DNA from: Paludibacteraceae bacterium
GTDB taxonomy: Bacteria > Bacteroidota > Bacteroidia > Bacteroidales > Paludibacteraceae
Length of the DNA stretch: 38,792 nucleotides
Assembly (NCBI GenBank): GCA_024405875.1
Contig: JAKSOA010000016.1
Coordinates: 1-38,792, forward strand
Direction: 5' to 3'
Each line of letters begins with the position of its first letter. Position 1 is the stretch's first letter. The notes below the pieces were generated by a model that saw nothing but the letters and a program-made list of their open reading frames with translations, did not search any database and was not told the origin of the DNA. A program made the translations under genes and the position numbers. Of the stretch, positions 2,044 through 22,639 are shown piece by piece.

Positions 2044-3324
2044 ATGCCTATCCCTAATGATTTCATATTGCAGATGCAGCAGATTCTGGGTGATGAGTAC
2101 CCGGAGTTTGAGGGGGCTTTGCGGTTGCCTGCAACTACCTCTGTGCGTGTGAATGGTAAGGTTGAAGCCTCAAAATTGGATATACTGAAAGACGCTGAAC
2201 TTGTACCATATTGTGAGACAGGTTACATGCTGCCCCAGAGACCCGATTTTACGCTTGACCCGATGCTTCACGCTGGCGCGTACTATGTGCAGGAGGCGTC
2301 AAGTATGTATTTGGAGCATATTATTAGTAAATATGTGAGCGGAAAAGTATACGCTCTTGACCTCTGTGCCGCACCTGGTGGCAAGTCAACACATTTGGCA
2401 CAGTTGCTTACCCCTGATTCTCTGCTTGTATGCAATGAGATAATGCCCCAAAGGGCGAATGTTTTGAATGAAAACCTCACAAAATGGGGTAATGTAAACA
2501 CAATAGTCACCAATAATAAACCGTCAGATTTTGGCAAGGCAGGCTCAATGTTTGACCTTCTTGTTACTGACGTGCCTTGTTCTGGTGAGGGAATGTTCCG
2601 CAAAGAGCCTAAGGCAGTTGAGGATTGGAGCCTGAAAGCGGTGCAGATGTGTGCGGAGCGTCAGCGCTCAATTCTTGAAGATGTCTGGGACGCACTAAAA
2701 GAGGGTGGCTTGCTCATATACAGCACCTGCACTTTCAACCGCTCAGAAGATGAGGATAATGTGGAGTGGATAGCCTCAAATCTTGGTGCGGAGATACTTG
2801 AACAAAAGCATTTTTATTTCCATAACACAGTGGGTGAGGGGTTCTATATAGCGGCATTAAGAAAGACATCGGGTAGTGGCAGGGGCGTAAAAATAAAGCC
2901 TGGCAGGTTTGAAAAAGCCCCTGCTGTTTCAGCATATATTAGAAATGCGGATAAATTCAGATTTATAAAGGTTGGAGACGGTATTTCCGCAGTCCCCTCT
3001 GCCGATGCTGATGTTTACGCCTGGTTCGCAGCCAATTTCCGCACCTTGAAATGTGGCACAGAGGTATGTACATTCAAGGGTAGGGATGAGATTCCGGCAC
3101 ACGCACTCGCCCTCTCAAAGGCTATTGACACTGCCGCCGTTCAGTCTTGCAGTGTTGATTCGGAGCAGGCGCTCATATATCTACGCCGTGAGTCAATAAC
3201 ACTCCCTAACGCTCCCAAAGGCTATGTGCTCATATTATACAAAGGCGTGCCGCTTGGGTGGGTCAAGAATCTTGGCAACCGCGCAAATAATCTATATCCA
3301 GAGTATTGGCGGATACGCAAATAA
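2044..3324 (+). CDS. RsmF-like rRNA (cytosine-C5-)-methyltransferase, NOL1/NOP2/Sun family
   Basis: The 426-residue protein has all core motifs: DLCAAPGGKSTHLAQLL (SAM-binding motif I), DVPCSGEGMFRK (motif IV with the PC cysteine) and YSTCTFN (motif VI with the catalytic TC cysteine). An acidic SEDEDNVEWI stretch follows. The C-terminal ~130 residues match the extra domain of RsmF/YebU-type enzymes, which methylate C1407 of 16S rRNA. The target is inferred from this architecture. It is the last gene of the 548-3324 operon and is followed by a new promoter. Confidence 0.88.
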   Translation: MPIPNDFILQMQQILGDEYPEFEGALRLPATTSVRVNGKVEASKLDILKDAELVPYCETGYMLPQRPDFTLDPMLHAGAYYVQEASSMYLEHIISKYVSGKVYALDLCAAPGGKSTHLAQLLTPDSLLVCNEIMPQRANVLNENLTKWGNVNTIVTNNKPSDFGKAGSMFDLLVTDVPCSGEGMFRKEPKAVEDWSLKAVQMCAERQRSILEDVWDALKEGGLLIYSTCTFNRSEDEDNVEWIASNLGAEILEQKHFYFHNTVGEGFYIAALRKTSGSGRGVKIKPGRFEKAPAVSAYIRNADKFRFIKVGDGISAVPSADADVYAWFAANFRTLKCGTEVCTFKGRDEIPAHALALSKAIDTAAVQSCSVDSEQALIYLRRESITLPNAPKGYVLILYKGVPLGWVKNLGNRANNLYPEYWRIRK

Positions 3325-5736: not shown

Positions 5737-5758
5737 CATAATGTCCAAGCAATTCATC

Positions 5759-5788
5759 AAAGGGAGTTCAGAAATGAATTCCCTTTTT
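5759..5788 (+). terminator. Intrinsic terminator after rpmA
   Basis: AAAGGGAGTTC (5759-5769) pairs with GAATTCCCTTT (5776-5786) with one G.T wobble, loop AGAAAT, followed by more T residues. Confidence 0.8.
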
Positions 5789-5842
5789 CAATTAACAATT
5801 AACTATTCTTTTTTCTTTTTTAACTTTTCACTATTTATTTAT

Positions 5843-5850
5843 TACCTTTG
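5843..5850 (+). promoter_or_regulatory. -7 box of serS
   Basis: TACCTTTG lies 19 nt before the chosen serS start at 5870. The longer open frame from 5741 would begin upstream of the rpmA terminator, so it is not the real start. Confidence 0.6.
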
Positions 5851-5869
5851 CGCTCTAAAGATTAGAACT

Positions 5870-7144
5870 ATGCTTACATTAAAGTACATTACAGAGAATT
5901 TTGATGATGCCGTAGCACGTTTGAACAAAAAACACTTTGACGGCAGAGAGATTTTAAGCAAGGTTGTTGAACTTGACAGTGACCGTAAGGCTACCCAGAC
6001 AAGGCTTGACGGAATTCTTAACCAAATAAAAGTACAGTCGGGCAAGGTGGGGGAGATGATGAAGAAGGGTATGCAGGCTGAGGCTGTTAAGATACGTGAG
6101 GAAGTTGCCGCACTTAAGGCTCAGACCGCTGAACTTGACAAGCGTATGAGCAGTGATATTGAGCAGATTACAAATCTGCTTCTCACCGTTCCTAATATTC
6201 CAAATGACACAGTGCCAGAGGGTTATGGAGCGGAAGATAACAAGGTTGAGAGAATGGGCGGCGTTGTCCCCGAACTTGGAGCGGACGCTCTGCCACATTG
6301 GGAACTTGCAAAAAAATATGACCTCATAGATTTTGATTTGGGCGTTAAGATAACAGGTGCAGGATTCCCTGTATATAAAGGGTGGGGTGCCAGACTTCAA
6401 CGCGCACTTATAAATTTCTTCCTTGATGAGGCTCGTGCCGCTGGCTACACTGAGATTATGCCACCAACAGTAGTTAATGAGGCATCGGGGTATGGAACAG
6501 GTCAATTACCTGACAAAGAGGGGCAGATGTACCACTGCGGTCTTGACAACCTCTATCTTATTCCTACCGCTGAGGTTCCTGTTACTAATATCTACCGCGA
6601 TGTTATTCTTAATGAGAAAGAACTTCCTATTAAGAATTGCGCATATACACAGTGTTTCCGTCGTGAGGCTGGCAGTTATGGCAAAGATGTGCGCGGACTT
6701 AACCGTCTGCACGAGTTCTCAAAAATTGAGATTGTACGCATAGATACTCCTGAGCACTCTTATCAGAGCCTCGATGAGATGATTGCCCACGTTGAGAACC
6801 TTGTCACAAAACTTGAACTGCCATATAGGATTTTGAGGCTTTGCGGTGGCGATATGTCATTCACCTCTTCCATTACATTTGACTTTGAGGTATTCTCCGC
6901 CGCACAGAAGCGTTGGCTTGAGGTTAGTTCCGTCTCTAACTTTGAGAGTTATCAGGCTAACCGCCTTAAATGCCGTTACCGTACTGCCGATAAGAAGACA
7001 CAACTCTGCCACACACTTAATGGTAGCGCACTTGCCCTGCCTCGTATTGTAGCCGCTCTGCTTGAGAACAATCAGACCCCGGAGGGTATCCGCATTCCTA
7101 AGGCGTTGCAACCGTATATGGGCACGGAGTTAATTAGCAATTAG
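5870..7144 (+). CDS. serS: Seryl-tRNA synthetase
   Basis: This 424-residue class II synthetase has an N-terminal coiled-coil arm (about residues 30-100, heptad-rich with many Lys/Glu) that contacts the long variable arm of tRNA-Ser. The core carries IPTAEVPVTN, motif 2 (FRREAGSYGKDVRGLNRLHEF) and motif 3 (LNGSALALPRIVAALLE). It charges tRNA-Ser, and Sec tRNA where present. The start at 5870 (MLTLKYITENFDDA) fits the family and the promoter. The last codons and the TAG stop lie inside an AT-rich dispersed repeat, so the C-terminal LISN may be repeat-derived. Confidence 0.96.
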   Translation: MLTLKYITENFDDAVARLNKKHFDGREILSKVVELDSDRKATQTRLDGILNQIKVQSGKVGEMMKKGMQAEAVKIREEVAALKAQTAELDKRMSSDIEQITNLLLTVPNIPNDTVPEGYGAEDNKVERMGGVVPELGADALPHWELAKKYDLIDFDLGVKITGAGFPVYKGWGARLQRALINFFLDEARAAGYTEIMPPTVVNEASGYGTGQLPDKEGQMYHCGLDNLYLIPTAEVPVTNIYRDVILNEKELPIKNCAYTQCFRREAGSYGKDVRGLNRLHEFSKIEIVRIDTPEHSYQSLDEMIAHVENLVTKLELPYRILRLCGGDMSFTSSITFDFEVFSAAQKRWLEVSSVSNFESYQANRLKCRYRTADKKTQLCHTLNGSALALPRIVAALLENNQTPEGIRIPKALQPYMGTELISN

Positions 7145-7203: not shown

Positions 7204-7238
7204 AAATCACCAGATCACTGATTTGGTGATTTTTTTTT
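7204..7238 (+). terminator. Intrinsic terminator after serS
   Basis: AAATCACCA (7204-7212) pairs with TGGTGATTT (7224-7232), loop of 11 nt, followed by a T tract to 7238. Confidence 0.75.
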
Positions 7239-7346: not shown

Positions 7347-10300
7347 ATGAAAAGAAGATTACTTTTTGTTTTTTTGGCTGCATTCCTTTCCGTAAGGTTC
7401 TGCAATGTTATGGCCGATGAATTGAAAAAGACCGACGCCCAACAGGTATGGTTACAGAAACCAGGTGCTATGCGTATCATATTGGTATCAAGCGTTAGTA
7501 TTGATGAGACTCACGAGGAAGGATTTAGAGTCCTTGCGTTTCGTGAAGGTGGTGAGGTAGGAGACAAATGTGGTAGTGATGAATGTGCCTCTTCAATTGG
7601 TTGGGGTGATATTGGCGGTAGTGTGAATAATATTTTTGATGTGTGGAGAAATACCTCTTCTTGTATGTATCTATCAAAAAAAGGGCGGTCCGGATTAAAC
7701 CTTGACTCTCTGAATGCTGAACTTGAGTTTCATTCTTCTTGTTATATTGACCGTATATATTGGAGAGAAAAATACCACCCTGGTACATCTGAAGATAGAA
7801 GATATTGGAATCATCAATGTGCGTCAGGAACACCTAAAAAACTTAATTTTGTTTGGCATATGCCTGAAGAGGCTAAGCAGTTGTCACAAATACAAATTAC
7901 TGCGGATATAAAGGCTTCTGTAGCGACTATAGAAGATGGAGGTAATAGACGTGATGGTTATCTATATGATGTTAAAAGAACATTTATCATTGCAACGGCA
8001 GGACCTGACCCAATGGTGCCTACATCCGCTTTTGCAGTAGATAACGGAGATTCGGAATCAGCACCTGGCAAAATGATGTGTCCTATAGTATCTCAAACAG
8101 GTGTGACTTTAGATTGGTATAAGATATATATTAATGGTGAAACAGGCGGGATGAAACATACATTGTCAGAGAACAATAAAAATGCCTATGTCCCTATATC
8201 AGATACCCCTCAATCAGTATCTTTTGAGGTTGGCGGTAATTCAATAGATGGAATAGAAGGGCATAATTTTGAAGGATTTATGTCTAATACAATAACTGTT
8301 CCCGCATATCATAGATTATATGATGTAAAGGCAGAATGGAATACAGAGTCCAAAACAGGCTTGTATGACGGCTCGGTAAAAATCAGTTGGAATATAAAGA
8401 ACGCTGCGGAAGATGATTATATGAGCAGTGACTTGTTTGTAATTGAGCGAGACACCTTGCCTGATTTCAGTACAGCACAGACAATTGGCAGTGTAAATTA
8501 TGAGGTGCGTAAGGAAAATTATGAATTTGTAGATGAGACTGAGGTTATTAAGCGTCAGCAAGCCTCAGGTGGCAAATATTACTACCGTGTATATAGAGCA
8601 TCGGCATCATTCTGGACAGATAAACAGGCTGTGGATGATTCAGGTCTTGGTGGCAGAACCTCAATTAATGTGCCAGGTGTATGGCAGTCTGAAATAAAAT
8701 ATGGTTTAGCAATGGAGGCGAGCGATTGGAATGTAACACGCAATGTAAATATTAATGCTACGGTAGCGGCAGGTGATGGTTTCTATTGGGATATGGAGAG
8801 AGTAAAGATGTTTTTGGTAAAACGTATGATTTCAGGTACAGATACCGTTACCGCTGAGATACTTGTTCCGGAAGATAGCGTTAAGTTTGAAGAATACAAT
8901 TATAGCGTTAACTATACAGATGTGGCTGATATAGCGTGCAAACGATATGCGTACAGCCTTAAACTTGATTTGTCAAATAGTTTGCTCCCTTATTCCAGTA
9001 CCGCTGGTAAGGAAGTGGAGGCGGTAGCGGACACCTCTTTCTACTTTAATGACGGAATGACTATGGATAAACTGTCCGCTACATACAATGAATCGGCTGA
9101 TATGATATCATTGGTTTGGGATACCAAGGGCGGAGAGTTTCAAACTTATACCGTATTCCGTCAGAACAATGATTCATTTGAAAAAATAGGTGAGACAGAT
9201 GAAAAAAGTTATATGGACAGAGAGGCTCCTATAGGTAAGGAGTGCCAATATAAGGTAGTAGGACAGTTGGTGTGTGATAAGATAGTGAAAGACTCATTGT
9301 CCGTTACCGGACGCAGAAGTGAGTACGGCTCCATAAGCGGACACGTAACATACCCTGACGGCTCAGCGTGTAGTGGAGTTACAATTGGTGTGTTTGCAGA
9401 TGATGTAAAAGAGGTGTTGCGTAAAACTGTAACTAATACAGATGGTTCTTACACCATTGACAGTCTGAATATAATGGAACATAGTACATTTACAGTACAC
9501 CCTTCTGATGACTATAACAGCACATTCAATACTCTTGCAGGAGTGGAAGGGGATATTGTTGTGGCACTTGCCGGTACAAATGTCTCCACAGCATACGCAA
9601 CCAATATCAGTTTCGTTAATACTTCAGTACATAAGTTTAGTGGTCGTGTGTTATATGACCACTCCACAGTTCCTGTGCAAAATGCCCTATTTAGAGTAAA
9701 CGGGAATGTGGTTATAAACAAAGCGGGAGAGCCGGTAAAGACCGATGCGTCAGGAAACTTCTCATTGCTTGTACCAGCCACAGAGGGTTTTGGACACGGA
9801 ACAACAACAATACAGGCGTTCAAGGATGGTCATAATTTTGCAAATGAAGGCTTTTTTACTGATGAAGACGGTCATAAAGAGATGAAAATTATAGAGGATG
9901 TGGCAGGTCAGCGCATATATGATGAAACCAAGGTAACACTAATTGGACGTGTTACGGGAGGCAAGATAGAGGGGGAGAAACCGTTGACATTACAAAAGGG
10001 CTCAATTAACACACTTGGAGACAGCATTACTCTTGTATTTGAGTTGGAGGGTGACAAAATATCCCATTTGGTACATTACCCAACAGACCCTGACATTAAA
10101 ACTAAGGACACCGTATATACCCATATTGATAAGGAGTACAAGACTACTATGCATACGGAGTTGAAACGCATAACCGTACATCCTGACCCTGTCACAGGTG
10201 AGTATATGGTTGAGTTGTTCCCTGTAAAATATAAGATAGTTCAGGCTACGGCAGAGGGTTACGCCACTCTGTTCCCTGTGGGTATGACCGCACAAGTTCT

Positions 10301-13300
10301 TGACTTGACTAATAGCGTAACTCCAATGGATACCATACCTAATCCATTCACTGGAGACAATTTGGTTTATAATGATAAATACTCCATTACATATCGTGCC
10401 CCGATAGAGTTGATATACAACCAATTGTTATATGGTATGCCAAAGGATTATTTGGGAGAGGAGCGTATGAGCCTTATCACGTATAATGGTATGGACACAA
10501 CCATAAACATTGTCAAGCACGACACAATAGATAAGGTAGTCAATGTAAGTTATATGTTCGGCTATCCTGTGTTCAAGTCAAATCAGACATATATGCTCTC
10601 AGTAGCGGCAAGAGAGAAATATTACTACAATAATGACAAGTCAGAGGCACGTCAGTGGCAGGTTGATTTGGAAGAGGGAGATATAGTGCTGTTTAACGGA
10701 ATGAGCGTAAATGGAGAGACTCTGACCGCACCAATCAACAAGGCAACTAAAAGAGCCTCATTTGTATATAGAGTGGACAATCCGTCATTTGTGCTTGGTG
10801 GAGAAGAGGGTTTGCGACAGTTGGAACTACGTATTGACCAGGATGGTCTGTACGTCTATTCAACACCTGTAAAGGGCTATATTGTCGGGTCAAGGTTAAA
10901 AGGCACATCCACAGTTCAAACATTAGTTGAGAATATATGTGTTTCAGATGTATTGAGAGACCCGTATGGAGCAAACAGTTATGCATACGTTGAGGGTGGA
11001 ACCACATACAATGCCGCATATAGTTATGATCTTGAAGTTACTGGAGGTGTTAATTTGGGAGCAACAAATGGAGATGACTCTTGGTTTAGTACTGGAATAA
11101 TTGCTGCACCTATGGGGGGTGGAGTACAGAATTCATCAAGCGCCGCCATAATACGGTCTAACGCAAAGAATTATTGGGAAACCACTATAAAAACAGGTTA
11201 TAAGAGACACGAAGTTGCTGAATATACATTTACAACAGCAGAAAAAATCACCACATCAAATGACCCTCTTATGGTAGGTTCTGATGCTGATGTATATATA
11301 GGTGCAAGCAGTCAGATGTATGCCGCTATGACAGATGCGGTGGTAATAATGGACAGTACCACCTATAACCATTGTCAGCCAATGTTTGAGGCGGGAAAGG
11401 CACATCTGCTGGCAGAGCCTACTGAGGATGCTCCATACTATTTGGTAGTAAGAGAACAGATGGAAGTAGGAAGAGAATTACCTGTTAAATTTGTATATAC
11501 ACAGACCTACATTTTAGGTACTCTTATTCCAAAATGCTATCAGGAGCGCAACTCGCTGCTTATGGTAGGCAGTCAGGATGACTCATATTGGCAGAACCTT
11601 GCAAATGAGACAAAAAAATCTGTCTATCATAGCCTTGTAGGTACTGATGATATTTTATTTGGAACGGATGGAACATATAAATGGTTTAAGCCAGAAGGTT
11701 CTGAAGGTATATATGTGGATGAGGTAAAACAATACAATACTCTGATTGCACAATGGTATTTGGCTGTGGCAGATAATGAAAAGAAAAAATACACTGCCAT
11801 ACTTACAAGTAAACCCACGACTACATATTCATTAACATCAGATACAGAGATAAGTTACAATAACAAGGCGGAACTTGCATCGGGGCATACTGACGGTTGG
11901 ATGTGGGATCCATTGGTTGAAGCGGTACCCGAACTTTTAACTTCTCTAGTTAAAGGTGCGATGAGTCCCGACTTGTTTTATGTTTGTGAAGCTTTCACTA
12001 TTAATGTGGAATTAAGTATTGACCCTTTTGTTAATGTTAATTTCACTGAGACCCCTGAACGTAAGAAAGGTTTCTCAAAAGAATCAGGTTTTGTTTTGCA
12101 GACCGCAGAATACAGTTATGAAGATATAGGAATATATTTCCTAAAGGATAACAGTCTTGTGGAAAGTGATGATTACAAGGATGTTTATGATGATGCGAAA
12201 GGTGGAAAACACACATACAGTGGAACGGATGATGATGGAGAACACTACGTGGATTTCATATTCGCACGCCTTGGAGGAGCCACCCGTTGTCCGTATGAGG
12301 ATGCTGATATTACCAAAGTATATATGCCAGGCGCACAACTTGCCCCTGCAACGCTGCGTATAGATAACCCAACGGTTACAATAAATAAAAGGGAGATAGG
12401 AAATGTTCCTGCTGACCAGCCTGCGGTGTATGAACTTACCATAAGCAATGAGTCAGACATAACATTTGAGAATGACTTTATGTCAACATCATTCACGCTC
12501 CGTCAAGATGAATCCACCAATAAGGACGGTTTAGTAATAACCATTGACGGTTCCGTTATAAAGGGTGGTCTTAGTTTCTCTTTGCTTCCGGGTCAATCAA
12601 TAAAGAAGACAATGGAGGTAAGACGCGGTAAGGCATACGACTATGAGGACATAGGCTTGACACTACGTTCTGATTGTGATGTCTTTATGTATGACTCAGC
12701 CAAGTTCAGCGTTCATTACCAGCCACTGTCAACTCCTGTAAATATGGCGTTGCCTGTAAAGAACTGGATACTCAACACCCTGTCACCAAAGGATGAGACA
12801 GGCTACTACACCCCGGTTGAGATAGACGGCTTTGATGTTAATTATGACGGTTTTGACCACATAGACCTTCAGTATAAACTGAACACAGAGAGTGATGATA
12901 ATTGGGTTACACTATGCTCATTCTATGCAGACAGTACCCTGTATGAGAAGGCAAGCGGCAATAAGGAGATGATAAAGAACGGTCAGATAAAGAACTACAA
13001 GTTCTACGGGGAGCGTGACCCTATGGAGCAGAAATATGACCTGCGTGCATTAAGTTACTGTAGGTTCGGCAGTTCGTTTCTGACCAGTCCTTCAGAACTG
13101 AGGAGCGGTCTTAAGGATACCCGCCGTCCGCAACTGTTTGGCGTAGCCACACCTGCCAACGGAATATTGGGAGTGGGAGACTATATATCAATTCCGTTCA
13201 GTGAGGACATTGCCGCAAACTATTTGGATGAGGACAACAACTTTGAGATAACAGGTTACACTAACGCCTCACAGATAACCAACACCACATCACTGCGGTT

Positions 13301-16300
13301 CTTGGGCAAGGAGTCAAGTTACGCCGCAACCCAACTGTCAAGAGACCTTTCAAACAAGGACTTCAGTGTTGACTTTATGGTCAGGCCTGACACTGCAAGC
13401 AGTATGACATACATTATACAAGGTAATAAAGACGCTTATTTTGCAATAGAGCAGGTTAAGGATGAGAATGATGGCAAAATGTACTTGTATGTGGAGAACT
13501 CCAAAAAGGACACTATGTGTATTACTAAATCAGTGGCGCTTGACAATCTCTACATCAATGAATGGAACCATATAGTGGTAACATACGAGAATGAATCAGG
13601 TGAGGTTAATATGTATGTTAATGATGAGATGGTGAATGAAGCACATGGAAACGGAGCGGTAAGTCTGAACGGATACAAGGGAACAGGACCTGTATGGTTA
13701 GGCAGACATTTTGAGAAGAAGGACAATCCGTTCAAGGGCTGTATGCTTGAGGCCCGTTTATGGAGCAGGGTGTTGTCACAGTATGAGGTGGAAACATTGG
13801 CAAACAAGAAACTTACAGGCTATGAGGACGGTCTTGTGGCATACTATCCGCTGAATGAGGGTAAGGGTAAGACGGCAAAGGACCTTGCAGGTGGAGTGGT
13901 GATGACACTCAATAATACCGAGTGGACATACCCTGAAGGCAAGTCAATACCTGTTAAGGATAAGTCACTGAAATTGAAGGGAGACTTCTTCAGCGTGTCT
14001 GACGGCAGTGATTTCACCTACACTATGTGGTTTAAGGTTAATACAAAGCCACAGGCAGGAGATTCACTGAATCTGCTTTCATCAAAGAATATGCAGTTAA
14101 AACTGACAGACAGTTCTCTTACAATGATGAACGGGAATGACACCATTAACTGTAAAGGTTCTTGGATTGATTCCCAATGGCACTACTTTGCGTTGGCTGC
14201 AAACCACGCGGTAGGCAAGGGTGTGATGTACATTGACGGCAATAATGTGGCACAGTTCAATGCACGTGGCATCAAGAGTCCAAGTATGAGCGGAGACTGC
14301 ATTGAGATAGGACAGTATGACGGTACAGTTGCTGAGGTTACATTCTGGCAAGTCGCTTTGTCAGACAAGTACCTTAAGAGTTTTTATCTGAATGTGCCAA
14401 ATGATAAAGAGATGGGTCTTGTAACGCACTTGCCGTTCACATACCGTGTTTATGCCGATGACGGCAGTAAATATACCACAGAGTACTGTCCGTATAACTG
14501 TAGAATCAGATATGATGAGAATGGTAATGTGATTAAGCACGGAGACAATGACAGAGTTGTGCTTAACCCTGACTCAGACTTCCCGGCAAAGACAGAAGAT
14601 TTTCCTGACGGTGCTCCTGTAAATGAGAAGGGAAATATTGTCAAATACGGATTCAATTGGGTTGGCAAGGATAATGAACTTGTAATAAACCTTCAGATGG
14701 CTGAGCAACAGATTAACAAGCAGAATGTGTTTATTACGGTACGTGATGTAGAGGACTTGGCAGGTAACACCCAGCAGAGCCCTATGCAGTGGACACTGTT
14801 TGTTGACAAGAATGTAGTGGTATGGTCTGCAAGGTATCTGCAGAACACCATTAATGAGGGAGAGGGTTGCACCTTTGATTTGGAGGTGATAAACCAAAGC
14901 GGTATAGAACAGAACTTCTATATAAATGATTTGCCTTGGTGGCTGACCGCATCAAATGACCGCGGTTCATTAAGCCCTCTTGAGCATTTGCCGTTTACAT
15001 TCCGTGTAAGTGACGCTCTTGAGCCTGGTGAATATGAGGCAATTGTTCACGTTACAGATGATAAAGAACTGAGTGAGCCTCTTAAGGTGAATATTACGGT
15101 CAAGGCAATTGCTCCATCGTGGAAGGAAGACCCTATGGTTGACTCAAATGAGACTATGAATATGTTTGCAAAGGTACAGATAGAGGGAGCCAGAATAGGA
15201 AACTCTTCAATTGTATATTTTGACACTGACACCGCTGACATTGTGGCTGCATATTTGGGTGGTATATGTATAGATGTGGAGCATATTACAGAAGCAAAGA
15301 CAGGTACAATGCTGTTTATGAGTATGAAGAGCAGTGAGGATGCTGATTTCAAGAGAGCATTGTTAAGAGGTGACAACATCAGGTTTGTACTGTGGCGTGC
15401 GTCAACAGGTCAAATGTTTGTACTGTCACCAGAAGGGGAAGGAATCAAATATAAGGCGAATACAATTGTAGGAACACCTGATGAACCTATAATACTTAAA
15501 TCAACCCAACTGCGTTCTGCTGAATATCCTATATCCGCGGGCTGGAACTGGGTAAGTTTCAATATTGCCCCTGATAATGACGGCGGTAGTTTCAAGGGTG
15601 CGTTTACGCATAGTTATCAGTTTACTCACGGAGACTTTATAAAGGTTGAGGATGATTTGTCAAGTTATGAGAATGGTCAGTGGACTACAAATGACTTTAT
15701 CTTTGACAATAAGCGTGTATTTATGTTCCGTGTACATAATGACGGCAGGTTTGGCATTCACGGCACAACGCTTAAAGAGAGTGAACGCATTGTAAAGGTA
15801 GGTCAGGGTTGGAACTATCTGCCGTATCTGTGTGAGCACACACAGGATGTTACCACCGCACTTGGCGCGTATGACAAGAAAACTCCTGGTGATGTAATTA
15901 AGAGTTACAAGACATTCGCAATGCTTGATAATAACTATCAGTGGGTAGGTTCTCTTACTCATTTGAAACCTGGAACAGGTTATATGCTGTATCAACAGGC
16001 TGCTGATTCCGCTATAATCAAGTATCAGAATGTATCGCAATTTGACCCTGGATTAAGGTCTGCTGAGATAGAGCCTAATGAGTTCTTCAAGCGTAGCCAC
16101 AATATGCCTTTGATTGCAACTGTAGAGGGTGCGGAAGAGGGCGATGTTCTTGAGGCGTACGCAGGAGATGAGTTGGTTGGAGCGGCAACCGCTGACAATC
16201 AGGGCAGATTCCTGATGCTTACATCGGCTGATGAGGGCAGCGTAATGAGTTTCCGTTACAGCGGAACAATGGGCGGCAAGGAGAGCAAGCCTGTAATTAA

Positions 16301-16616
16301 GTATTCTTCAAAATTGGCATCGGTAGGTACTCTTGACAACCCTGCGGTTATACCGTTTGAAGAGGTAAGTGTAGGAGTGTTCCCTAATCCGTTTGTTGAT
16401 AAACTAACATTCAAGGCTGTGGTTAAGAAGGGTGATGTTATTGAGATTAACATCAACACAACAACCGGTGTTGGATTGTGGAGTTACAGAGCGGAGGCTG
16501 ATGCTGACGGCTTGTGGCAATACACATTTACTGGTGCTGAGAACTACCAGCACGGCACATACACTGCCACTGTATATGTTAACGGGGAAAAATTTGATTA
16601 TAAACTTATAAAATGA
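7347..16616 (+). CDS. Giant secreted multidomain protein with LamG-like domains and a T9SS C-terminal sorting domain
   Basis: The 3089-residue protein has a Sec signal peptide (MKRRLLFVFLAAFLSVRFCNVMA). Fibronectin-like segments follow. Two carboxypeptidase-regulatory-like modules lie at about 655-730 (GSISGHVTYPDGSACSGV, NTDGSYTIDSL) and 760-840 (FSGRVLYDHSTVPVQNA). Two LamG/concanavalin-like domains lie at about 2000-2155 (NEWNHIVVTYENESGEVNMYV, ARLWSRVLS) and 2210-2345. Lectin-free linker modules with GWNWVSFN (about 2730) and GWNYLPY follow. A type A T9SS tail begins at about 3009 (VGVFPNPFVDKLTF) and ends NGEKFDYKLIK. It should cross the outer membrane by T9SS and be attached to or released from the surface. 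Residues 2590-2720 and 2918-3000 resemble the downstream lipoprotein. The middle (about 1000-1950) matched nothing I recognise. An adhesin or scaffold role is inferred. Confidence 0.85.
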   Translation: MKRRLLFVFLAAFLSVRFCNVMADELKKTDAQQVWLQKPGAMRIILVSSVSIDETHEEGFRVLAFREGGEVGDKCGSDECASSIGWGDIGGSVNNIFDVWRNTSSCMYLSKKGRSGLNLDSLNAELEFHSSCYIDRIYWREKYHPGTSEDRRYWNHQCASGTPKKLNFVWHMPEEAKQLSQIQITADIKASVATIEDGGNRRDGYLYDVKRTFIIATAGPDPMVPTSAFAVDNGDSESAPGKMMCPIVSQTGVTLDWYKIYINGETGGMKHTLSENNKNAYVPISDTPQSVSFEVGGNSIDGIEGHNFEGFMSNTITVPAYHRLYDVKAEWNTESKTGLYDGSVKISWNIKNAAEDDYMSSDLFVIERDTLPDFSTAQTIGSVNYEVRKENYEFVDETEVIKRQQASGGKYYYRVYRASASFWTDKQAVDDSGLGGRTSINVPGVWQSEIKYGLAMEASDWNVTRNVNINATVAAGDGFYWDMERVKMFLVKRMISGTDTVTAEILVPEDSVKFEEYNYSVNYTDVADIACKRYAYSLKLDLSNSLLPYSSTAGKEVEAVADTSFYFNDGMTMDKLSATYNESADMISLVWDTKGGEFQTYTVFRQNNDSFEKIGETDEKSYMDREAPIGKECQYKVVGQLVCDKIVKDSLSVTGRRSEYGSISGHVTYPDGSACSGVTIGVFADDVKEVLRKTVTNTDGSYTIDSLNIMEHSTFTVHPSDDYNSTFNTLAGVEGDIVVALAGTNVSTAYATNISFVNTSVHKFSGRVLYDHSTVPVQNALFRVNGNVVINKAGEPVKTDASGNFSLLVPATEGFGHGTTTIQAFKDGHNFANEGFFTDEDGHKEMKIIEDVAGQRIYDETKVTLIGRVTGGKIEGEKPLTLQKGSINTLGDSITLVFELEGDKISHLVHYPTDPDIKTKDTVYTHIDKEYKTTMHTELKRITVHPDPVTGEYMVELFPVKYKIVQATAEGYATLFPVGMTAQVLDLTNSVTPMDTIPNPFTGDNLVYNDKYSITYRAPIELIYNQLLYGMPKDYLGEERMSLITYNGMDTTINIVKHDTIDKVVNVSYMFGYPVFKSNQTYMLSVAAREKYYYNNDKSEARQWQVDLEEGDIVLFNGMSVNGETLTAPINKATKRASFVYRVDNPSFVLGGEEGLRQLELRIDQDGLYVYSTPVKGYIVGSRLKGTSTVQTLVENICVSDVLRDPYGANSYAYVEGGTTYNAAYSYDLEVTGGVNLGATNGDDSWFSTGIIAAPMGGGVQNSSSAAIIRSNAKNYWETTIKTGYKRHEVAEYTFTTAEKITTSNDPLMVGSDADVYIGASSQMYAAMTDAVVIMDSTTYNHCQPMFEAGKAHLLAEPTEDAPYYLVVREQMEVGRELPVKFVYTQTYILGTLIPKCYQERNSLLMVGSQDDSYWQNLANETKKSVYHSLVGTDDILFGTDGTYKWFKPEGSEGIYVDEVKQYNTLIAQWYLAVADNEKKKYTAILTSKPTTTYSLTSDTEISYNNKAELASGHTDGWMWDPLVEAVPELLTSLVKGAMSPDLFYVCEAFTINVELSIDPFVNVNFTETPERKKGFSKESGFVLQTAEYSYEDIGIYFLKDNSLVESDDYKDVYDDAKGGKHTYSGTDDDGEHYVDFIFARLGGATRCPYEDADITKVYMPGAQLAPATLRIDNPTVTINKREIGNVPADQPAVYELTISNESDITFENDFMSTSFTLRQDESTNKDGLVITIDGSVIKGGLSFSLLPGQSIKKTMEVRRGKAYDYEDIGLTLRSDCDVFMYDSAKFSVHYQPLSTPVNMALPVKNWILNTLSPKDETGYYTPVEIDGFDVNYDGFDHIDLQYKLNTESDDNWVTLCSFYADSTLYEKASGNKEMIKNGQIKNYKFYGERDPMEQKYDLRALSYCRFGSSFLTSPSELRSGLKDTRRPQLFGVATPANGILGVGDYISIPFSEDIAANYLDEDNNFEITGYTNASQITNTTSLRFLGKESSYAATQLSRDLSNKDFSVDFMVRPDTASSMTYIIQGNKDAYFAIEQVKDENDGKMYLYVENSKKDTMCITKSVALDNLYINEWNHIVVTYENESGEVNMYVNDEMVNEAHGNGAVSLNGYKGTGPVWLGRHFEKKDNPFKGCMLEARLWSRVLSQYEVETLANKKLTGYEDGLVAYYPLNEGKGKTAKDLAGGVVMTLNNTEWTYPEGKSIPVKDKSLKLKGDFFSVSDGSDFTYTMWFKVNTKPQAGDSLNLLSSKNMQLKLTDSSLTMMNGNDTINCKGSWIDSQWHYFALAANHAVGKGVMYIDGNNVAQFNARGIKSPSMSGDCIEIGQYDGTVAEVTFWQVALSDKYLKSFYLNVPNDKEMGLVTHLPFTYRVYADDGSKYTTEYCPYNCRIRYDENGNVIKHGDNDRVVLNPDSDFPAKTEDFPDGAPVNEKGNIVKYGFNWVGKDNELVINLQMAEQQINKQNVFITVRDVEDLAGNTQQSPMQWTLFVDKNVVVWSARYLQNTINEGEGCTFDLEVINQSGIEQNFYINDLPWWLTASNDRGSLSPLEHLPFTFRVSDALEPGEYEAIVHVTDDKELSEPLKVNITVKAIAPSWKEDPMVDSNETMNMFAKVQIEGARIGNSSIVYFDTDTADIVAAYLGGICIDVEHITEAKTGTMLFMSMKSSEDADFKRALLRGDNIRFVLWRASTGQMFVLSPEGEGIKYKANTIVGTPDEPIILKSTQLRSAEYPISAGWNWVSFNIAPDNDGGSFKGAFTHSYQFTHGDFIKVEDDLSSYENGQWTTNDFIFDNKRVFMFRVHNDGRFGIHGTTLKESERIVKVGQGWNYLPYLCEHTQDVTTALGAYDKKTPGDVIKSYKTFAMLDNNYQWVGSLTHLKPGTGYMLYQQAADSAIIKYQNVSQFDPGLRSAEIEPNEFFKRSHNMPLIATVEGAEEGDVLEAYAGDELVGAATADNQGRFLMLTSADEGSVMSFRYSGTMGGKESKPVIKYSSKLASVGTLDNPAVIPFEEVSVGVFPNPFVDKLTFKAVVKKGDVIEININTTTGVGLWSYRAEADADGLWQYTFTGAENYQHGTYTATVYVNGEKFDYKLIK

Positions 16617-17449
16617 CAAACAATATGAAAACACGTGTTATGATATTTGCGGCACTTATTGCCGTTGCAATGGTGTGTTGTAAGAAAGATAACAAATCGG
16701 AGCCGGAACCTGTCACTCCTGTCACTCCTGTTGAGCCTGTTGAACCTGTTGAACCTCATGCTCCATCTAAGGTGGAACGAGCGCCACAATGGAAGGTAAA
16801 CTGGAGTTCGCACGATGAGGCTCCTGATTGGAAAGTCGCTGACAAGGATAAAGACATAACCTCCACAATGAACATAATAGCAAAGCCTTCTGATAACATT
16901 GCGGAGGCTGACATTATGGCGGCATTCTGTAATGATGTATGCGTAGGTGTATGTAAGCCTAAGGAGACTTCGTTTGGTATGAGGTTCTACTTGGGCATAT
17001 ACAGACCTAAGAGTGATAATCAAATGATAAAGTTGGCTTATTTTGACTCCAGGAACAGCAGAATCATATATTGGGTTGATGAGTTCCGTTTTACAAATGA
17101 CGATGTCAAGGGATTGGCGTCAGACCCTTATATTCCAAATGAAGCAAACAGAGTGTCAGGGGAGAAGGTTATGGTGTTCAGATACTCTTTACCTGAAGAT
17201 ATAACGGTTGTAGCCGGAGATGAGTTGGCATTGTTTGCAGGTGAAAGTTGCCGTGCCGTTCTTCCGCTTGACCCCGATGCAACCACACGCTTTGTTTACG
17301 AGGTTAAGGTTCCTGTGGCTGGTGATGTGGAGGAAATGTACGTAAAGTACTATTCCGCCTCAAAGAGTAAGGTGTATAAATTCAAGAGTTACAGGTTTGT
17401 GCTGGCTGAAAAAACACTTAGTGCCACTCCTTTAGAGTGGGCTGAATAA
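16613..17449 (+). CDS. Lipoprotein translationally coupled to the giant T9SS protein
   Basis: The 278-residue product has a signal peptide ending in AVAMVCCKKDN, a lipobox-like site, followed by a Thr/Pro/Val/Glu spacer (TPVTPVEPVEPVEP) as in surface-exposed Bacteroidota lipoproteins. The ATG overlaps the TGA of the giant gene by 4 nt; an alternative start is ATG 16625 (MKTRVMIF). Residues 72-190 (DWK...TMNIIAKP...ADIMAAFCNDVCVGVC) align by eye with residues 2590-2720 of the giant protein (SWKEDP...TMNMFAKV...ADIVAAYLGGICIDV). The end (VVAGDELALFAGESC) aligns with GDVLEAYAGDELVG near the giant protein's tail. I do not know the family. A partner or membrane anchor for the giant protein is inferred from coupling and shared modules. 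Confidence 0.75.
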   Translation: MTNNMKTRVMIFAALIAVAMVCCKKDNKSEPEPVTPVTPVEPVEPVEPHAPSKVERAPQWKVNWSSHDEAPDWKVADKDKDITSTMNIIAKPSDNIAEADIMAAFCNDVCVGVCKPKETSFGMRFYLGIYRPKSDNQMIKLAYFDSRNSRIIYWVDEFRFTNDDVKGLASDPYIPNEANRVSGEKVMVFRYSLPEDITVVAGDELALFAGESCRAVLPLDPDATTRFVYEVKVPVAGDVEEMYVKYYSASKSKVYKFKSYRFVLAEKTLSATPLEWAE

Positions 17450-17593: not shown

Positions 17594-20500
17594 ATGAAGA
17601 AACTTATTACTATGTTGGTGGCTCTTATAGCCGCTACATTTGTAGGTTTTGCCGCAAACGGAGAGGAGTGGTACAGTTACTCAGATAACCGTACTTACTG
17701 GATTCCAGCGGGCAGCAATGATATTTGGGTTTATTATGGTGAAAACCAGAAAGCCGTAGATATCAAGAACACTACCACCAGAGGTGGTCTGACTACAACA
17801 ACCTACAACATTGTGAAAATTGACGACTATGCCTTTAATGGTTATGGTATAGTTGAGAATGTAACCATAGGGTCTGGCATACAGACTATAGGTGATCACG
17901 CATTCTTCAATTGCTCAAACTTGTCAAAAATCACATTCAAAGGAGCGTGTGCTAATATTAACGCAAATGCGTTTGTGGGTTTGAACGCACTTACTGAAAT
18001 TGTCAGTGAGGCTACCTCACCTGTGGCGTTGAATGGTTTCTCTGCGTATTACAGCAAAGTTAAGGTTACAGTTCCCAAAGGTACCAAAGCCAAATATCAG
18101 GCTACAGCCGGTTGGAAAGAGTTTACTAACCTTGTAGAAGAGGGAGAGACACCTCCTACACCAGTAGTTACATATATTAACATACAAATCCAATTACCTA
18201 ATGAGTGGAACGCTCCCGCAACTTACACTTGGGCATCGGGCGATGAAATCAAGGCTATGACAAAGGCGTTCTCAATAGGTACTTTCACTTGGTGGAACGG
18301 TCAGATTAAGGCTAATACTAAGTTCCTTGTAAAGAATGGCGCTAATACAACAGATTGGACATACGCTACACAGGATTGCAAGGGTCAGTCTGCTGACTTT
18401 TGTATGGGTATAGGTGATAAGATGGAGAGTGGCAGATATGCCGCAACCATCACTCCTTGTGTGGAGCCTCCTGCAAAAGAGCCATATATTGAATCATTTA
18501 CAGTATCCCCAATATCTGTTCAAGTTGGTAATGCCGTAACATTTACAACCGTGACCAAGAATTTCAGCGGTACTCCTACACTTACTTATAGTGTTAAGTT
18601 TGGTACAGATGAGTTCAAGGCTGCCACAAGCCCATATACTCCAACAAAGGCGGGCTTATATACTGTAAAAGTTGATGCTACATATAATACGGAGAAGGCA
18701 AGTGCCACCGCCACATTCACAGCAACAGCGGTTCCTCCTGCTCCTGTTGTAAAATACTATGCAAAGAATAACTGGAACAGCACTGAGTGGACTTGGAAAG
18801 AGATGACAAAAGACGGCAGTGTCTATAAACTTGAAAAGGTGATATTCGGCGGTACAGGTTTCAACTTCAATACTAAAGCCGATGATGCTGATGCAAAATG
18901 GATTTCAGCGGATAAGTTCACTGGTGATGCTGTACAAGCCAATGATACTGTAAGCTTCACATATAATCCAACAGGTGATGTTGTTACTATGACATTAGTA
19001 GGCCGTCCTAAAGAGGCTGACGCTATTATTACTGCCATAAATATTTCAGGTAATAAGTATGTGGGTACAGAACTTACATTCACAGCCTCAACATTCGGAT
19101 TCAAGAGCACTCCTACAATCTCTTACTCTGTTAAGAAAGATGGTGGAGAATACAAGACCGCTGAAGGTGGAAAATTCACTCCTGCCGAAGCCGGTGAATA
19201 TATTGTTAAGGCGTATGCCGCAACTGATACACAGGAGGCTTCAAAAGAGCAGAGGTTTACTGTGATTGCCGCACCTGTCATAAAGAGTTATGTTGCAGGT
19301 GAGTTTACAAGTTGGGGCGATGGCAAGAAAGAGTTACCTGCTGAGATAGAACTTGATGCTAAGAAATATGAGTTCAAGCAAATAACAGGGGATACTTGGA
19401 AAGGTGCTACAGATCAGGGTGCTACAATGACCCGTGGTAACAGTGCTTGGAAACTTGACGGAGAGCAGAATGTTACTCTTGATGCAGATGTTAAGGGTGT
19501 ATATAAGTTTGAGTTGGTAGGTGATGTGTTTACTGTAACATATCCTAAAGATGAGTGCACCTGGACTATGGTAGGTGACAACGCCTCCCTATTTGGCGAA
19601 ACTTGGAAACCTGAACTTGCCGCAAACGATATGAATGAGGTTGATGGTGTCTTTGTAAAATCATACAGTAACAAAACATTTAAGAAGGGTGATAAGATTG
19701 AGTTCAAGGCTGCAAAGAACCACGCTTGGACAACTACTGTTCCATCAGGAGACAACGCAAGTTACACATTCACAGAAGATGGTACATTTGACATTACATT
19801 CTCTCTTGATATTGCCGGTGGTAAGGTGAATATTGATGTTAAGAAATTTGAGCCTGAAGAGCCAACTGTAACATCAATCAATATCTCAGGTAAAAAATAT
19901 GTAGGTGAGGAACTTACATTTACGGCAACTGTGGCTAAATTCAATGGTGAGCCTACAATAGCCTACGCTGTTAAGCAAGGTGAGGGTGAGTATCAGGGTG
20001 CTGATGGTGGCAAATTCACACCAGATGCCGCAGGCTCCTACACTGTTAAGGCTACAGCAACATACGAACCTGCTGAAGGTGAAAAAGAAGAGGCTGTTCT
20101 TGAATTGCCATTTACAGTTACAACAGCACCTGAGAACATCGTAGTTAAGTTACTTGCATCTTCAACAACTTGGTCAGAGGTTGCAATCTACGCATTTGAC
20201 AATGCTGGTACTATTACAAAGGCTTGGCCTGGTGATAAACTTACAGTTTCAGACGGTTGGTACAGTTACACCATAGAGGGTGAGCATACGGGCTTGCAGA
20301 TAATCTTTAACAACAATGTTGCAGAAGGAGCGTCACAAACTGCGGATACCCCTGTATCAGCATCTACATGTTATGAGTTAGGTGCATACGATGAGACATC
20401 AGGCACGTTTGCTCTGAACACACGCGAGTGCACAGTTCCTCAAACCACTTGGACAATGGTAGGAAACAGTGAGACTTTGTTTGGTGAAAAATGGAATCCT

Positions 20501-22639
20501 ACGCTTGAGGCGAATGATATGGAAGAGGTTGAGAGCGTATTTACAAAGATTTATACTAATGTAGAATTCCTTAAGGATGAGGTAATTGAGTTCAAGGCTG
20601 CAAAGAATCACGCTTGGGCAACATCAATACCGGCAGGGGATAATGCCAAATATACCTTCACAGAGAGTGGCAACTTTGACATTACATTCACACTTGACAT
20701 TGCCGGTGACAAGGTGAACATCGTTGTCAAGAAATTTGAACCGAAAGAACCAACTGTAACCGCCATCAACATTACAGGCAGCAAGGTTGTAGGTGAGGAA
20801 CTCACATTCACAGCCTCTGTTGCCGGATTCAGTGCAGACCCTATGGTAATATATATGGTTAAGGCTGAAGAGGGTGAGTATGAACAGGCACAGGGAGGCA
20901 AGTTCACACCTACAGCAGCAGGCAACTACACCGTAAAAGCCACTGCATTCAACCAACCTGAGGAGGGAGAAGCTGAAGAGGCGTCCAAGGAAGTTGAGTT
21001 CACCGTTACAGAGGAGCCACAGCCAGGTGAGGAGATAACAGTTAAATTGCTTGCATCTTCAACAACTTGGTCAGAGGTTGCCATCTACGCATTTGACAAT
21101 GACGGCACTATTACAAAGGCTTGGCCGGGTGATAAACTTACAGCCGCAGACGGTTGGTACAGCTACACTATAGAGGGTGAGCATACGGGCTTGCAGATAA
21201 TCTTCAACAACAATGTTGCAGATGGAGCGTCACAAACAGTTGATACCCCTGTATCAGAGTCAACTTGCTATGAGTTGGGTGCCGCTGATGAGTCTGGCAA
21301 GTTTGCCCTTAATGTACGTGAGTGCACCGTTCCTCAAACAGGCTACGGCATAAAGATAGATGGTGAGACTATAGTAATGGGTGAGAAGAATCCTAAGGCT
21401 GAAAATGAGTGGATGATTCTTAACCAGTCTCTTGCCAAAGGACAGACATTTGCCCTGTATGACGCATCAACAGGCGGTACTTGGGCTGTTGCTCTTGATG
21501 AGGCAAGTGTTCCTGGTATAACCAAAGAAGAGAACTCATATTCAGTTACAGCAGATGGTTGCTACAGTTTCTACCTCAAACTCATTTACGGAGCAGACCA
21601 ACTGTATGTAGGTACAGGCGAATGCCCTGTTCCACCAGCGGAGCCAACAGTAACTGCAATAGACATTGCTGGCAGCAAGGTTATAGGTGAGGAACTCACA
21701 TTCACTGCGACAGTTGCTGGATTCAGTGCTGAGCCTATGATAATATATGAGGTTAAGGCTGAGGAAGGTGAGTATGAGCAGGCACAGGGTGGCAAGTTCA
21801 CACCTACTGCAGCAGGTAACTACACAGTAAAAGCCACTGCATTCTACCAACCAGAAGAGGGTGATGCTGAAGAGGCATTCAAGGAAGTTGAGTTCACCGT
21901 TACAGATGAGCCACAGCCAACAACAGGCATCACTGTAAATGTTACAGTACCTACAGGTACCCCTGAGTGCTACTTCTATGGAGCAATGTCAGACAACGCT
22001 TGGGTAGCGATGACTAAGGTTGATGAAACAAATTACACAATCAACTTTGCAGATGCTGAGGCGATAGGCTGGGGTTACCAATTCTCTTGGGGCGCTTCAT
22101 TTGATAGCGCTAACTCAGACCCAGAAGGCGACATTAAGATTGAGCCGGATGAGAAGGGTATCATATCAGTAGCGGTTAATGCTTGGAAACAAGACCCGTC
22201 AACCAAGTACTATTACACCACATACACAGAATGGCAAGTTAAGACAGACTGGAATGGTGGTGAGTGGGAATTTGTTGAGATGACAGAGGAATCAAAAGGT
22301 GTGTTCACTTATTCAGGACAATGGGGAACAGGTACGGGCGTTAACATTGCCAGCGGAGAGAATCTTATTAAGCAAAGTTGGTATCCTGCAGATGATGCAA
22401 ACCTGACTATTGACCCGGCATTGGGTGTAGGTGATGATGTTAAAGTTACATTGACTGTTGTTGATGATGAGACAATATCAATTAGTGCTGCAAAGGCAAT
22501 ACCTACTGAAGACCCTGCAAATAAGGCAAAGGCAACCGTTATAAGATACAGGAACTTGATTGGTCAAGTTGTTCTTGCAAATTATAAGGGTGTCAAACTT
22601 GCTGAGATGTCAGATGGTACAACTTTAAAAGTTCAATAA
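17594..22639 (+). CDS. Secreted modular starch-binding-type protein (BspA-like LRR, Ig-like and CBM26-like repeats)
   Basis: The 1681-residue protein starts with a signal peptide (MKKLITMLVALIAATFVGFA). Residues ~75-185 are BspA-type leucine-rich repeats (IDDYAFNGYG, TIGDHAFFNCSNLSKITF). Five Ig-like modules start near 297, 475, 755, 1053 and 1351 (VGEELTFTATV... GGKFTPTAAGNYTVKA). Two CBM26-like modules lie at ~848-945 and ~1146-1245 (WSEVAIYAFDN, AWPGDKL, DGWYSYTIEG, IIFNNN). Two SusE-like modules start near 656 and 951 (TWTMVG...LFGE.W.P). Unique modules surround them. CBM26 domains bind starch, so a surface or secreted starch-binding role is inferred; no catalytic domain is visible. The end (RNLIGQVVLANYKGVKL...DGTTLKVQ) may be a divergent T9SS tail, but it is not a clear match. 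A strong terminator follows. Confidence 0.8.
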   Translation: MKKLITMLVALIAATFVGFAANGEEWYSYSDNRTYWIPAGSNDIWVYYGENQKAVDIKNTTTRGGLTTTTYNIVKIDDYAFNGYGIVENVTIGSGIQTIGDHAFFNCSNLSKITFKGACANINANAFVGLNALTEIVSEATSPVALNGFSAYYSKVKVTVPKGTKAKYQATAGWKEFTNLVEEGETPPTPVVTYINIQIQLPNEWNAPATYTWASGDEIKAMTKAFSIGTFTWWNGQIKANTKFLVKNGANTTDWTYATQDCKGQSADFCMGIGDKMESGRYAATITPCVEPPAKEPYIESFTVSPISVQVGNAVTFTTVTKNFSGTPTLTYSVKFGTDEFKAATSPYTPTKAGLYTVKVDATYNTEKASATATFTATAVPPAPVVKYYAKNNWNSTEWTWKEMTKDGSVYKLEKVIFGGTGFNFNTKADDADAKWISADKFTGDAVQANDTVSFTYNPTGDVVTMTLVGRPKEADAIITAINISGNKYVGTELTFTASTFGFKSTPTISYSVKKDGGEYKTAEGGKFTPAEAGEYIVKAYAATDTQEASKEQRFTVIAAPVIKSYVAGEFTSWGDGKKELPAEIELDAKKYEFKQITGDTWKGATDQGATMTRGNSAWKLDGEQNVTLDADVKGVYKFELVGDVFTVTYPKDECTWTMVGDNASLFGETWKPELAANDMNEVDGVFVKSYSNKTFKKGDKIEFKAAKNHAWTTTVPSGDNASYTFTEDGTFDITFSLDIAGGKVNIDVKKFEPEEPTVTSINISGKKYVGEELTFTATVAKFNGEPTIAYAVKQGEGEYQGADGGKFTPDAAGSYTVKATATYEPAEGEKEEAVLELPFTVTTAPENIVVKLLASSTTWSEVAIYAFDNAGTITKAWPGDKLTVSDGWYSYTIEGEHTGLQIIFNNNVAEGASQTADTPVSASTCYELGAYDETSGTFALNTRECTVPQTTWTMVGNSETLFGEKWNPTLEANDMEEVESVFTKIYTNVEFLKDEVIEFKAAKNHAWATSIPAGDNAKYTFTESGNFDITFTLDIAGDKVNIVVKKFEPKEPTVTAINITGSKVVGEELTFTASVAGFSADPMVIYMVKAEEGEYEQAQGGKFTPTAAGNYTVKATAFNQPEEGEAEEASKEVEFTVTEEPQPGEEITVKLLASSTTWSEVAIYAFDNDGTITKAWPGDKLTAADGWYSYTIEGEHTGLQIIFNNNVADGASQTVDTPVSESTCYELGAADESGKFALNVRECTVPQTGYGIKIDGETIVMGEKNPKAENEWMILNQSLAKGQTFALYDASTGGTWAVALDEASVPGITKEENSYSVTADGCYSFYLKLIYGADQLYVGTGECPVPPAEPTVTAIDIAGSKVIGEELTFTATVAGFSAEPMIIYEVKAEEGEYEQAQGGKFTPTAAGNYTVKATAFYQPEEGDAEEAFKEVEFTVTDEPQPTTGITVNVTVPTGTPECYFYGAMSDNAWVAMTKVDETNYTINFADAEAIGWGYQFSWGASFDSANSDPEGDIKIEPDEKGIISVAVNAWKQDPSTKYYYTTYTEWQVKTDWNGGEWEFVEMTEESKGVFTYSGQWGTGTGVNIASGENLIKQSWYPADDANLTIDPALGVGDDVKVTLTVVDDETISISAAKAIPTEDPANKAKATVIRYRNLIGQVVLANYKGVKLAEMSDGTTLKVQ
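19562..20449 (+). repeat. Intragenic long repeat, unit 1 (SusE-like + Ig-like + CBM26-like)
   Basis: A three-module cassette of about 890 nt is followed directly by a second copy. In the CBM26 part long stretches are nearly identical at DNA level (for example around 20154 and 21051, 897 nt apart), pointing to recent duplication or gene conversion. Confidence 0.75.
20450..21342 (+). repeat. Intragenic long repeat, unit 2
   Basis: Second copy of the SusE-like/Ig-like/CBM26-like cassette. The Ig-like module here is closest to the fifth Ig-like module at about 21646, so exchange between modules has continued after the duplication. Confidence 0.75.

Follow-up and report, generated by a model that had tools for sequence, protein, structure and literature searches.

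The window, by which we mean the whole 38,792-nt stretch of DNA analysed, is an entire contig (G000:C8) of a Paludibacteraceae genome of 1.85-Mb and 78.7% completeness. It contains the gene for a giant T9SS-type surface protein and, directly after it, the gene for a lipoprotein that shares a module with the giant. The features of the pair are as follows.

7204..7232, + strand: terminator-like hairpin with T tail, upstream of the giant gene (consensus match only)
7347..16616, + strand: giant T9SS-type surface protein, 3089 aa (ORF; homologues in 45/120 family genomes)
9330..9482, + strand: carboxypeptidase-regulatory-like domain, giant aa 662-712 (PF13620 at 23.3 bits, below the cut-off of 32.3)
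10314..13301, + strand: unnamed middle region, giant aa 990-1985 (aligned over 49 giants)
13314..13790, + strand: Laminin_G_3 domain, giant aa 1990-2148 (PF13385, E 2.9e-27; two such Pfam stretches)
15084..15512, + strand: module, giant copy 1, aa 2580-2722 (profile)
16098..16367, + strand: module, giant copy 2, aa 2918-3007 (profile)
16377..16613, + strand: T9SS type A-like C-terminal sorting domain, aa 3011-3089 (TIGR04183 at 20.6 bits, just under the cut-off of 23)
16613..17449, + strand: partner lipoprotein, 278 aa, with lipobox-like Cys22/Cys23, Pro/Glu linker and two modules (ORF, module profile)
16787..17152, + strand: module, lipoprotein copy 1, aa 59-180 (profile)
17144..17413, + strand: module, lipoprotein copy 2, aa 178-267 (profile)

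Both ORFs are present as an earlier note on this DNA had described them, and their ATGA overlap at 16613-16616 is borne out. The lipoprotein gene has an alternative start, an in-frame ATG at codon 5; if that is the real start, the two genes do not overlap. Upstream of the giant gene, 5741-7144 reads by eye, without family assignment, as seryl-tRNA synthetase. Terminator-like sites in the region numbered 4, against 6.5 expected in shuffles, and a promoter scan of the region was at chance level (28 found, 29.7 expected).

Downstream, at 17594-22639 on the + strand, lies the gene for an exported-looking protein of 1681 aa whose domains are of the BspA-type LRR, CBM26 (starch-binding) and PKD kinds. 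Among named relatives, the closest found was a Paludibacteraceae MAG from horse faeces (L010), with 95% identity across the part of the giant searched. The genes directly flanking the pair differ between the two; the LRR/CBM26 protein is missing at the matching place in L010, where transporter-like and LuxS-like genes are found (by eye), and an htpG-like gene (also by eye) lies farther downstream in both.

About 950 residues in the middle of the giant had been noted as matching nothing recognisable, and this stood up to Pfam, NCBIfam and PDB profile searches: no family in Pfam or NCBIfam reached its cut-off against the middle ~1000 residues, and a profile of the region picked up nothing in the PDB at E<=10. 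A PDB search with the giant returned a single significant match, 4dqa, to the LamG region. LamG domains occurred in the four giants scanned, which suggests that the giants bind surfaces or glycans. The last 100 aa of the window giant missed the TIGR04183 cut-off of 23 bits, and the genome encodes the T9SS components SprA (TIGR04189, 2594 bits) and PorU sortase (NF033707, 1065 bits). Neither the giant nor the lipoprotein matched the type B domain TIGR04131 at E<=1, and no PorP/SprF-type arrangement lies beside the window pair, the next gene being that of the 1681-aa protein.

The shared module

The lipoprotein matched the giant directly in BLASTP (49-154 to 2568-2683, 27% identity, E 4e-6). We prepared a first module profile from 28 module sequences of partner lipoproteins, the window's among them, and a leave-out profile from other genomes' lipoproteins, excluding both lipoproteins of the window's genome. 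The leave-out profile scored the window lipoprotein at 67.0 bits (59-180) and 26.6 bits (178-267), and the window giant at 22.6 bits (2580-2722) and 9.4 bits (2919-3007). In shuffle controls the top score was 4.8 bits for 500 giants (any listed match in 263) and 5.8 bits for 500 lipoproteins (any listed match in 334). The second giant copy is thus the weakest of the window's four. The earlier note had described two modules common to both proteins, one marked by ADI(V/M)AA and the other by GDEL. The sharing holds; their separateness does not, since the profile matches twice in each protein above the shuffles, making the two so-called modules copies of the same domain. We conclude that a single domain of ~110 residues is present in two copies near the giant's C-terminus and two in the lipoprotein.

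With the profile of 28 sequences, the same arrangement came up in all 49 giants scored, the window's and 48 others that were fetched: two modules apiece, the weaker copy having a domain E <= 0.031. The modules start about 455-515 and 130-210 residues from the C-terminus. Similarity of the module profile to the giants' last 100 residues was discarded, being read as due to those giants in which the second module reaches into these residues.

The idea that the module is a common, generic T9SS domain was rejected on its distribution: all 7 matches (E<=1) in the window's own genome fall in two giant/lipoprotein pairs, and across 120 genomes of the same family the matches (E<=0.001) are only giants, giant fragments and short partner ORFs. 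The second pair in the window's genome is paralogous (contig C33), with a giant of 3098 aa and a lipoprotein of 149 aa, 3 nt apart. Pfam gave three weak matches among 20 modules scanned, each to one module. Sequence and profile searches of the PDB found nothing credible for the module (best E 1.2) or for the lipoprotein.

Gene pairing and the two kinds of anchor

In the 120 family genomes the giant and the module occur in the same 45 (34/79 high-quality genomes; 17/33 genera). A short module ORF, meaning an open frame of up to 501 residues that is not a giant fragment, was present in 37 of these 45 and absent in 8. Three of the eight (G013, G043 and G103) are absent from the giant tree. Our trees omit giants with 50 or more masked residues. 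A check of frames whose kind was uncertain found giant sequence next to the module in G076:C16 and G021:C26, and two modules at the giant's spacing in two 479-residue frames at contig ends of G103. Near-duplicates (window/L010, L067/L068 and L070/L071) were counted separately, so the counts here and below are not of independent events.

Forty giants, the window's included, form one clade (support 99). In 38 of the 40 the lipoprotein gene is the next gene on the same strand, at a distance of -35 to +247 nt. A profile check confirmed the module in 36 of the 38 adjacent partners, plus L061; in the L084 partner the contig end cuts the gene before the module, and its start resembles that of L054. 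As for the two exceptions, L048 is a giant without an adjacent partner whose genome holds another pair (L050), and the genome of L056 (G009) keeps its lipoprotein on another contig, away from any giant. In G041, too, a lipoprotein is present that does not adjoin a giant. Our neighbourhood scan, covering up to four genes upstream and five downstream, found the lipoprotein to be the only widely conserved neighbour of giants in this clade; the second most frequent neighbour family of giants was at 5/49 loci.

In the sister clade of 9 giants, by contrast, a module partner was found in 0/9 fetched loci, one of which (L078) extends only 280 nt past the giant. The earlier note would have counted a consistent lack of the lipoprotein among homologues against a paired system; such a lack is seen in the sister clade and not in the window's. 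At one locus (L072/L073, G044:C44) two clade-B giants stand in close succession with no lipoprotein partner.

A lipobox-like Cys was named in 38/38 partners, which is partly by construction, as 34 had been picked using the lipobox rule. Among 35 lipoproteins the layout is a lipobox-like Cys, a spacer and then the module, with one module in most. The spacer is very short in some and, judged by eye, long, heptad-like and coiled-coil-looking in others (L053, L054, L082). Two modules are found in the lipoproteins of the window, L010, L011, L012, L014 and L016. One lipoprotein of 491 aa (L061) has four modules, the sole such case among the 35 scored; a similar frame of 493 residues with four module matches is present in G076.

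The surface export signal of Bacteroidota lipoproteins is given, in the available text of PMC5080379, as K-(D/E)2 or an S-acidic run after the Cys. Counting the lipidated Cys as 0, we found at least two acidic residues between positions +2 and +5 in 26/38 partners versus 5/20 other nearby lipobox proteins, a contrast inflated by a choice of Cys that favoured charged tails in the 38. The window lipoprotein, whose lipobox cysteine is Cys22/23 by pattern, continues after the Cys with KKDNK, a partial fit to the published minimal signal; the paralogue lipoprotein (CGKKKE or GKKKEP) does not fit it.

Outside the family, we searched 295 genomes of the class. The module profile matched 18 and the giant-middle profile also 18, with 15 in common; G225, G259 and G319 matched by module only, and G382, G397 and G406 by middle only. 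Of the 15 class-level giants without heavy masking, eight are followed by a gene with the module right behind a signal peptide, and seven of these eight giants form one clade. A search for the gene pair in other genomes, which the earlier note had proposed, therefore recovers it in many, and in other orders with another kind of anchor. The other-order partners are far larger than the lipoproteins, with seven genes of 822-2340 aa and one cut at 768 aa. Cadherin repeats were found in 4/4 scanned. The type B domain TIGR04131 scored above cut-off in 6/7, the remaining one reaching 34.5 against 35, and the gene after the partner was PorP/SprF (TIGR03519) in 8/8, above cut-off. The fourth gene of the locus was above the OmpA (1) or SPOR (3) cut-off in 4/6 and matched SPOR weakly in the other 2. 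L095 is counted in the type B and PorP tallies, and L102 likewise in those for type B and the fourth gene; at these two loci the giant that should lie upstream is missing or masked. Type B proteins bind PorP-like proteins, which are proposed to anchor them at the surface, and the surface holding of PG1035 is proposed to involve a PorP-like protein and the peptidoglycan-binding PorE (PMC9143113, available text). Given type B/PorP partners in other orders and lipobox partners in the window's order, the constant element across orders is the module on an anchor; the predicted anchor type (lipid, or type B/SprF) changes.

None of the remaining seven far giants adjoins a module partner, and L112, one of the seven, lacks a module match of its own. 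Genome G120 gave eleven module matches, spread over ten frames that are 2137-2217 residues long and of which eight share a contig; the two of its giants that were read (L104 and L105) have no module partner next door, and form part of an expanded partner-less branch. G319 has a cadherin-type partner (L095) with an N-terminal module and a type B signal, together with PorP/SprF and SPOR genes; no giant match was found in that genome.

We examined the history of the module with a tree of 184 modules over 111 columns, a thin alignment, omitting matches with a domain E >= 0.05 and those no longer than about 60 residues. The tree separates giant copy 1, giant copy 2 and the partner copies into three groups, with 6 label changes observed versus 86.8 in shuffles, and the partners as one clade were not rejected (p-AU 0.85). 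From this grouping, the partner domain looks like an old paralogue with a lineage of its own. Recent copying of the lipoprotein domain from its own giant, an alternative we considered, is not supported by the same count of changes. The earlier note had pictured a two-component system whose lipid-anchored partner uses a copied domain of the giant. A recurrent two-gene unit, a lipobox-type partner and a shared module all agree with that picture; the copying of the domain from the partner's own giant is not supported, as judged by the module tree with its few columns.

A docking model and its alternatives

On balance, we lean towards a two-component surface system in which module-module contact would let the partner dock the giant on the cell surface or keep it there; surface exposure, contact and retention are what we infer from sequence, starting from the homology and near-exclusivity of the module, the gene pairing and the two alternative anchor types. 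The T9SS would export the giant, with its two private ~110-residue modules shortly before the C-terminal sorting region, and the adjacent gene would supply an anchored protein presenting the same module. The predicted anchor in the window's order is a lipobox cysteine, and the short spacer behind it is flexible or looks like a coiled coil. Other orders would instead use a stalk of cadherin repeats plus a type B sorting domain, its gene lying next to one for a PorP/SprF barrel and often near one for a peptidoglycan-binding protein. The lipoprotein is placed outside the cell on the strength of the lipobox-like Cys and the acidic runs among partners. Contact between partner module and giant module would then leave the giant docked or retained at the surface, and so not solely reliant on its cleavable type A-like signal for attachment.

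More tentatively, and with rather less confidence than in docking itself, we propose a previously undescribed private docking domain that holds a giant T9SS protein non-covalently on the Bacteroidota surface and around which interchangeable anchors evolved, either a lipid with a variable spacer or a cadherin stalk combined with a type B/SprF/peptidoglycan chain. The occurrence of a giant of ~3,000 residues with a small membrane-tethered module protein in many gut and environmental Bacteroidota suggests a previously undescribed mode of docking; the open-licence PMC papers, in their available text, yielded no description of a giant/module-partner pairing.

Several observations weigh on the other side. 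The solo sister clade, the far solo giants and the one giant-less partner (G319) count against an obligate pairing. A type A signal by itself can yield covalent surface attachment (PMC10202324, available text), and covalent attachment by that signal alone would make a second anchor redundant, which counts against docking.

The best-surviving alternative, which we nonetheless hold unlikely, is a shared ligand: the module would bind something outside the cell, such as a glycan, so that giant and partner act together without touching. The varying number of modules per lipoprotein (1, 2 or 4), as in carbohydrate-binding modules, and the lectin-like LamG domains of the giants scanned fit such a role. 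Binding modules, however, are normally shuffled into enzymes, whereas this module keeps to giants, giant fragments and short partner ORFs in the family, and the frames listed from the 295 class genomes are of giant length or partners, several of the G120 frames not having been individually checked. We consider it improbable that the lipoprotein is instead a periplasmic helper that stays inside and keeps the giant's C-terminal part export-competent before T9SS passage. The shared module does adjoin the sorting domain, and the export signal of the window lipoprotein is imperfect; the other-order partners, however, are themselves equipped with a T9SS sorting signal and accompanied by a PorP/SprF gene, and so should leave the cell. 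Least probable of all is a toxin/immunity pair, in which the giant would be aimed at rivals, with the lipoprotein shielding the producer as a decoy of the giant's module: a large exported protein beside a small lipoprotein, with a shared domain that could serve as decoy, has that look, yet orphan immunity genes are common whereas a giant is present in every one of the 37 family genomes that have a short module ORF (the one giant-less partner, in G319, being from another order), the large cadherin-bearing, type B partners of other orders are out of character, and a search of a defence library found no match.

Docking by shared modules can be set beside three known systems. In the type V fimbriae of Porphyromonas, as described in the available text of PMC5789003, Mfa2/FimB is likewise a lipid-anchored protein with the core fold of the shaft protein, encoded in the same cluster, and loss of FimB gives long, easily shed fimbriae. 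Lipoprotein subunits make up those fimbriae, and Rgp proteases mature several of the subunits, unlike the single 3000-residue T9SS-type chain of the window; no fimbrillin/Mfa2 Pfam match was found in the giant, the lipoprotein or the 20 modules scanned. The other-order loci resemble the SprB-SprF and PG1035-PorP anchoring of type B proteins (PMC9143113, available text) in having a type B domain and PorP/SprF, often with a peptidoglycan-binding gene. In those systems, however, the type B domain belongs to the large adhesin, whereas here it sits on a separate, smaller, module-bearing partner of a type A-like giant; in the window's order a lipobox protein replaces the type B partner.

The third comparison is with type A cargo of the T9SS, which the giants resemble in having a type A-like C-terminus (33/49 at E<=0.1 for TIGR04183); the window's genome also has SprA and PorU. 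The fates described for such cargo in the available text of PMC10202324 are A-LPS attachment or release, and an anchor partner sharing a module is not among them; on the division of cargo between attachment and release, that text says that how PorU selects "remains to be unravelled". With a docking partner of its own, the giant would have its fate between surface and release settled. If the module is indeed confined to a giant cargo and the anchor dedicated to it, this would amount to a further, non-covalent fate, checkable with two purified fragments, and the natural swap of anchors around a constant domain offers a comparative handle. The proteins concerned make up a large conserved family, from gut as well as environmental Bacteroidota, and both their module and their middle region lie outside every curated family searched.

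In the giants L011-L016, L048, L050, L055, L056, L075 and L076, two other short types of C-terminus replace the canonical type A domain. One reads '...GWYTLQGIKL.KRP...GVYIYNGKK..IK' and the other '...KVIENGHVIIIRG.ERYDVTGRKL' or similar; both may be divergent T9SS signals.
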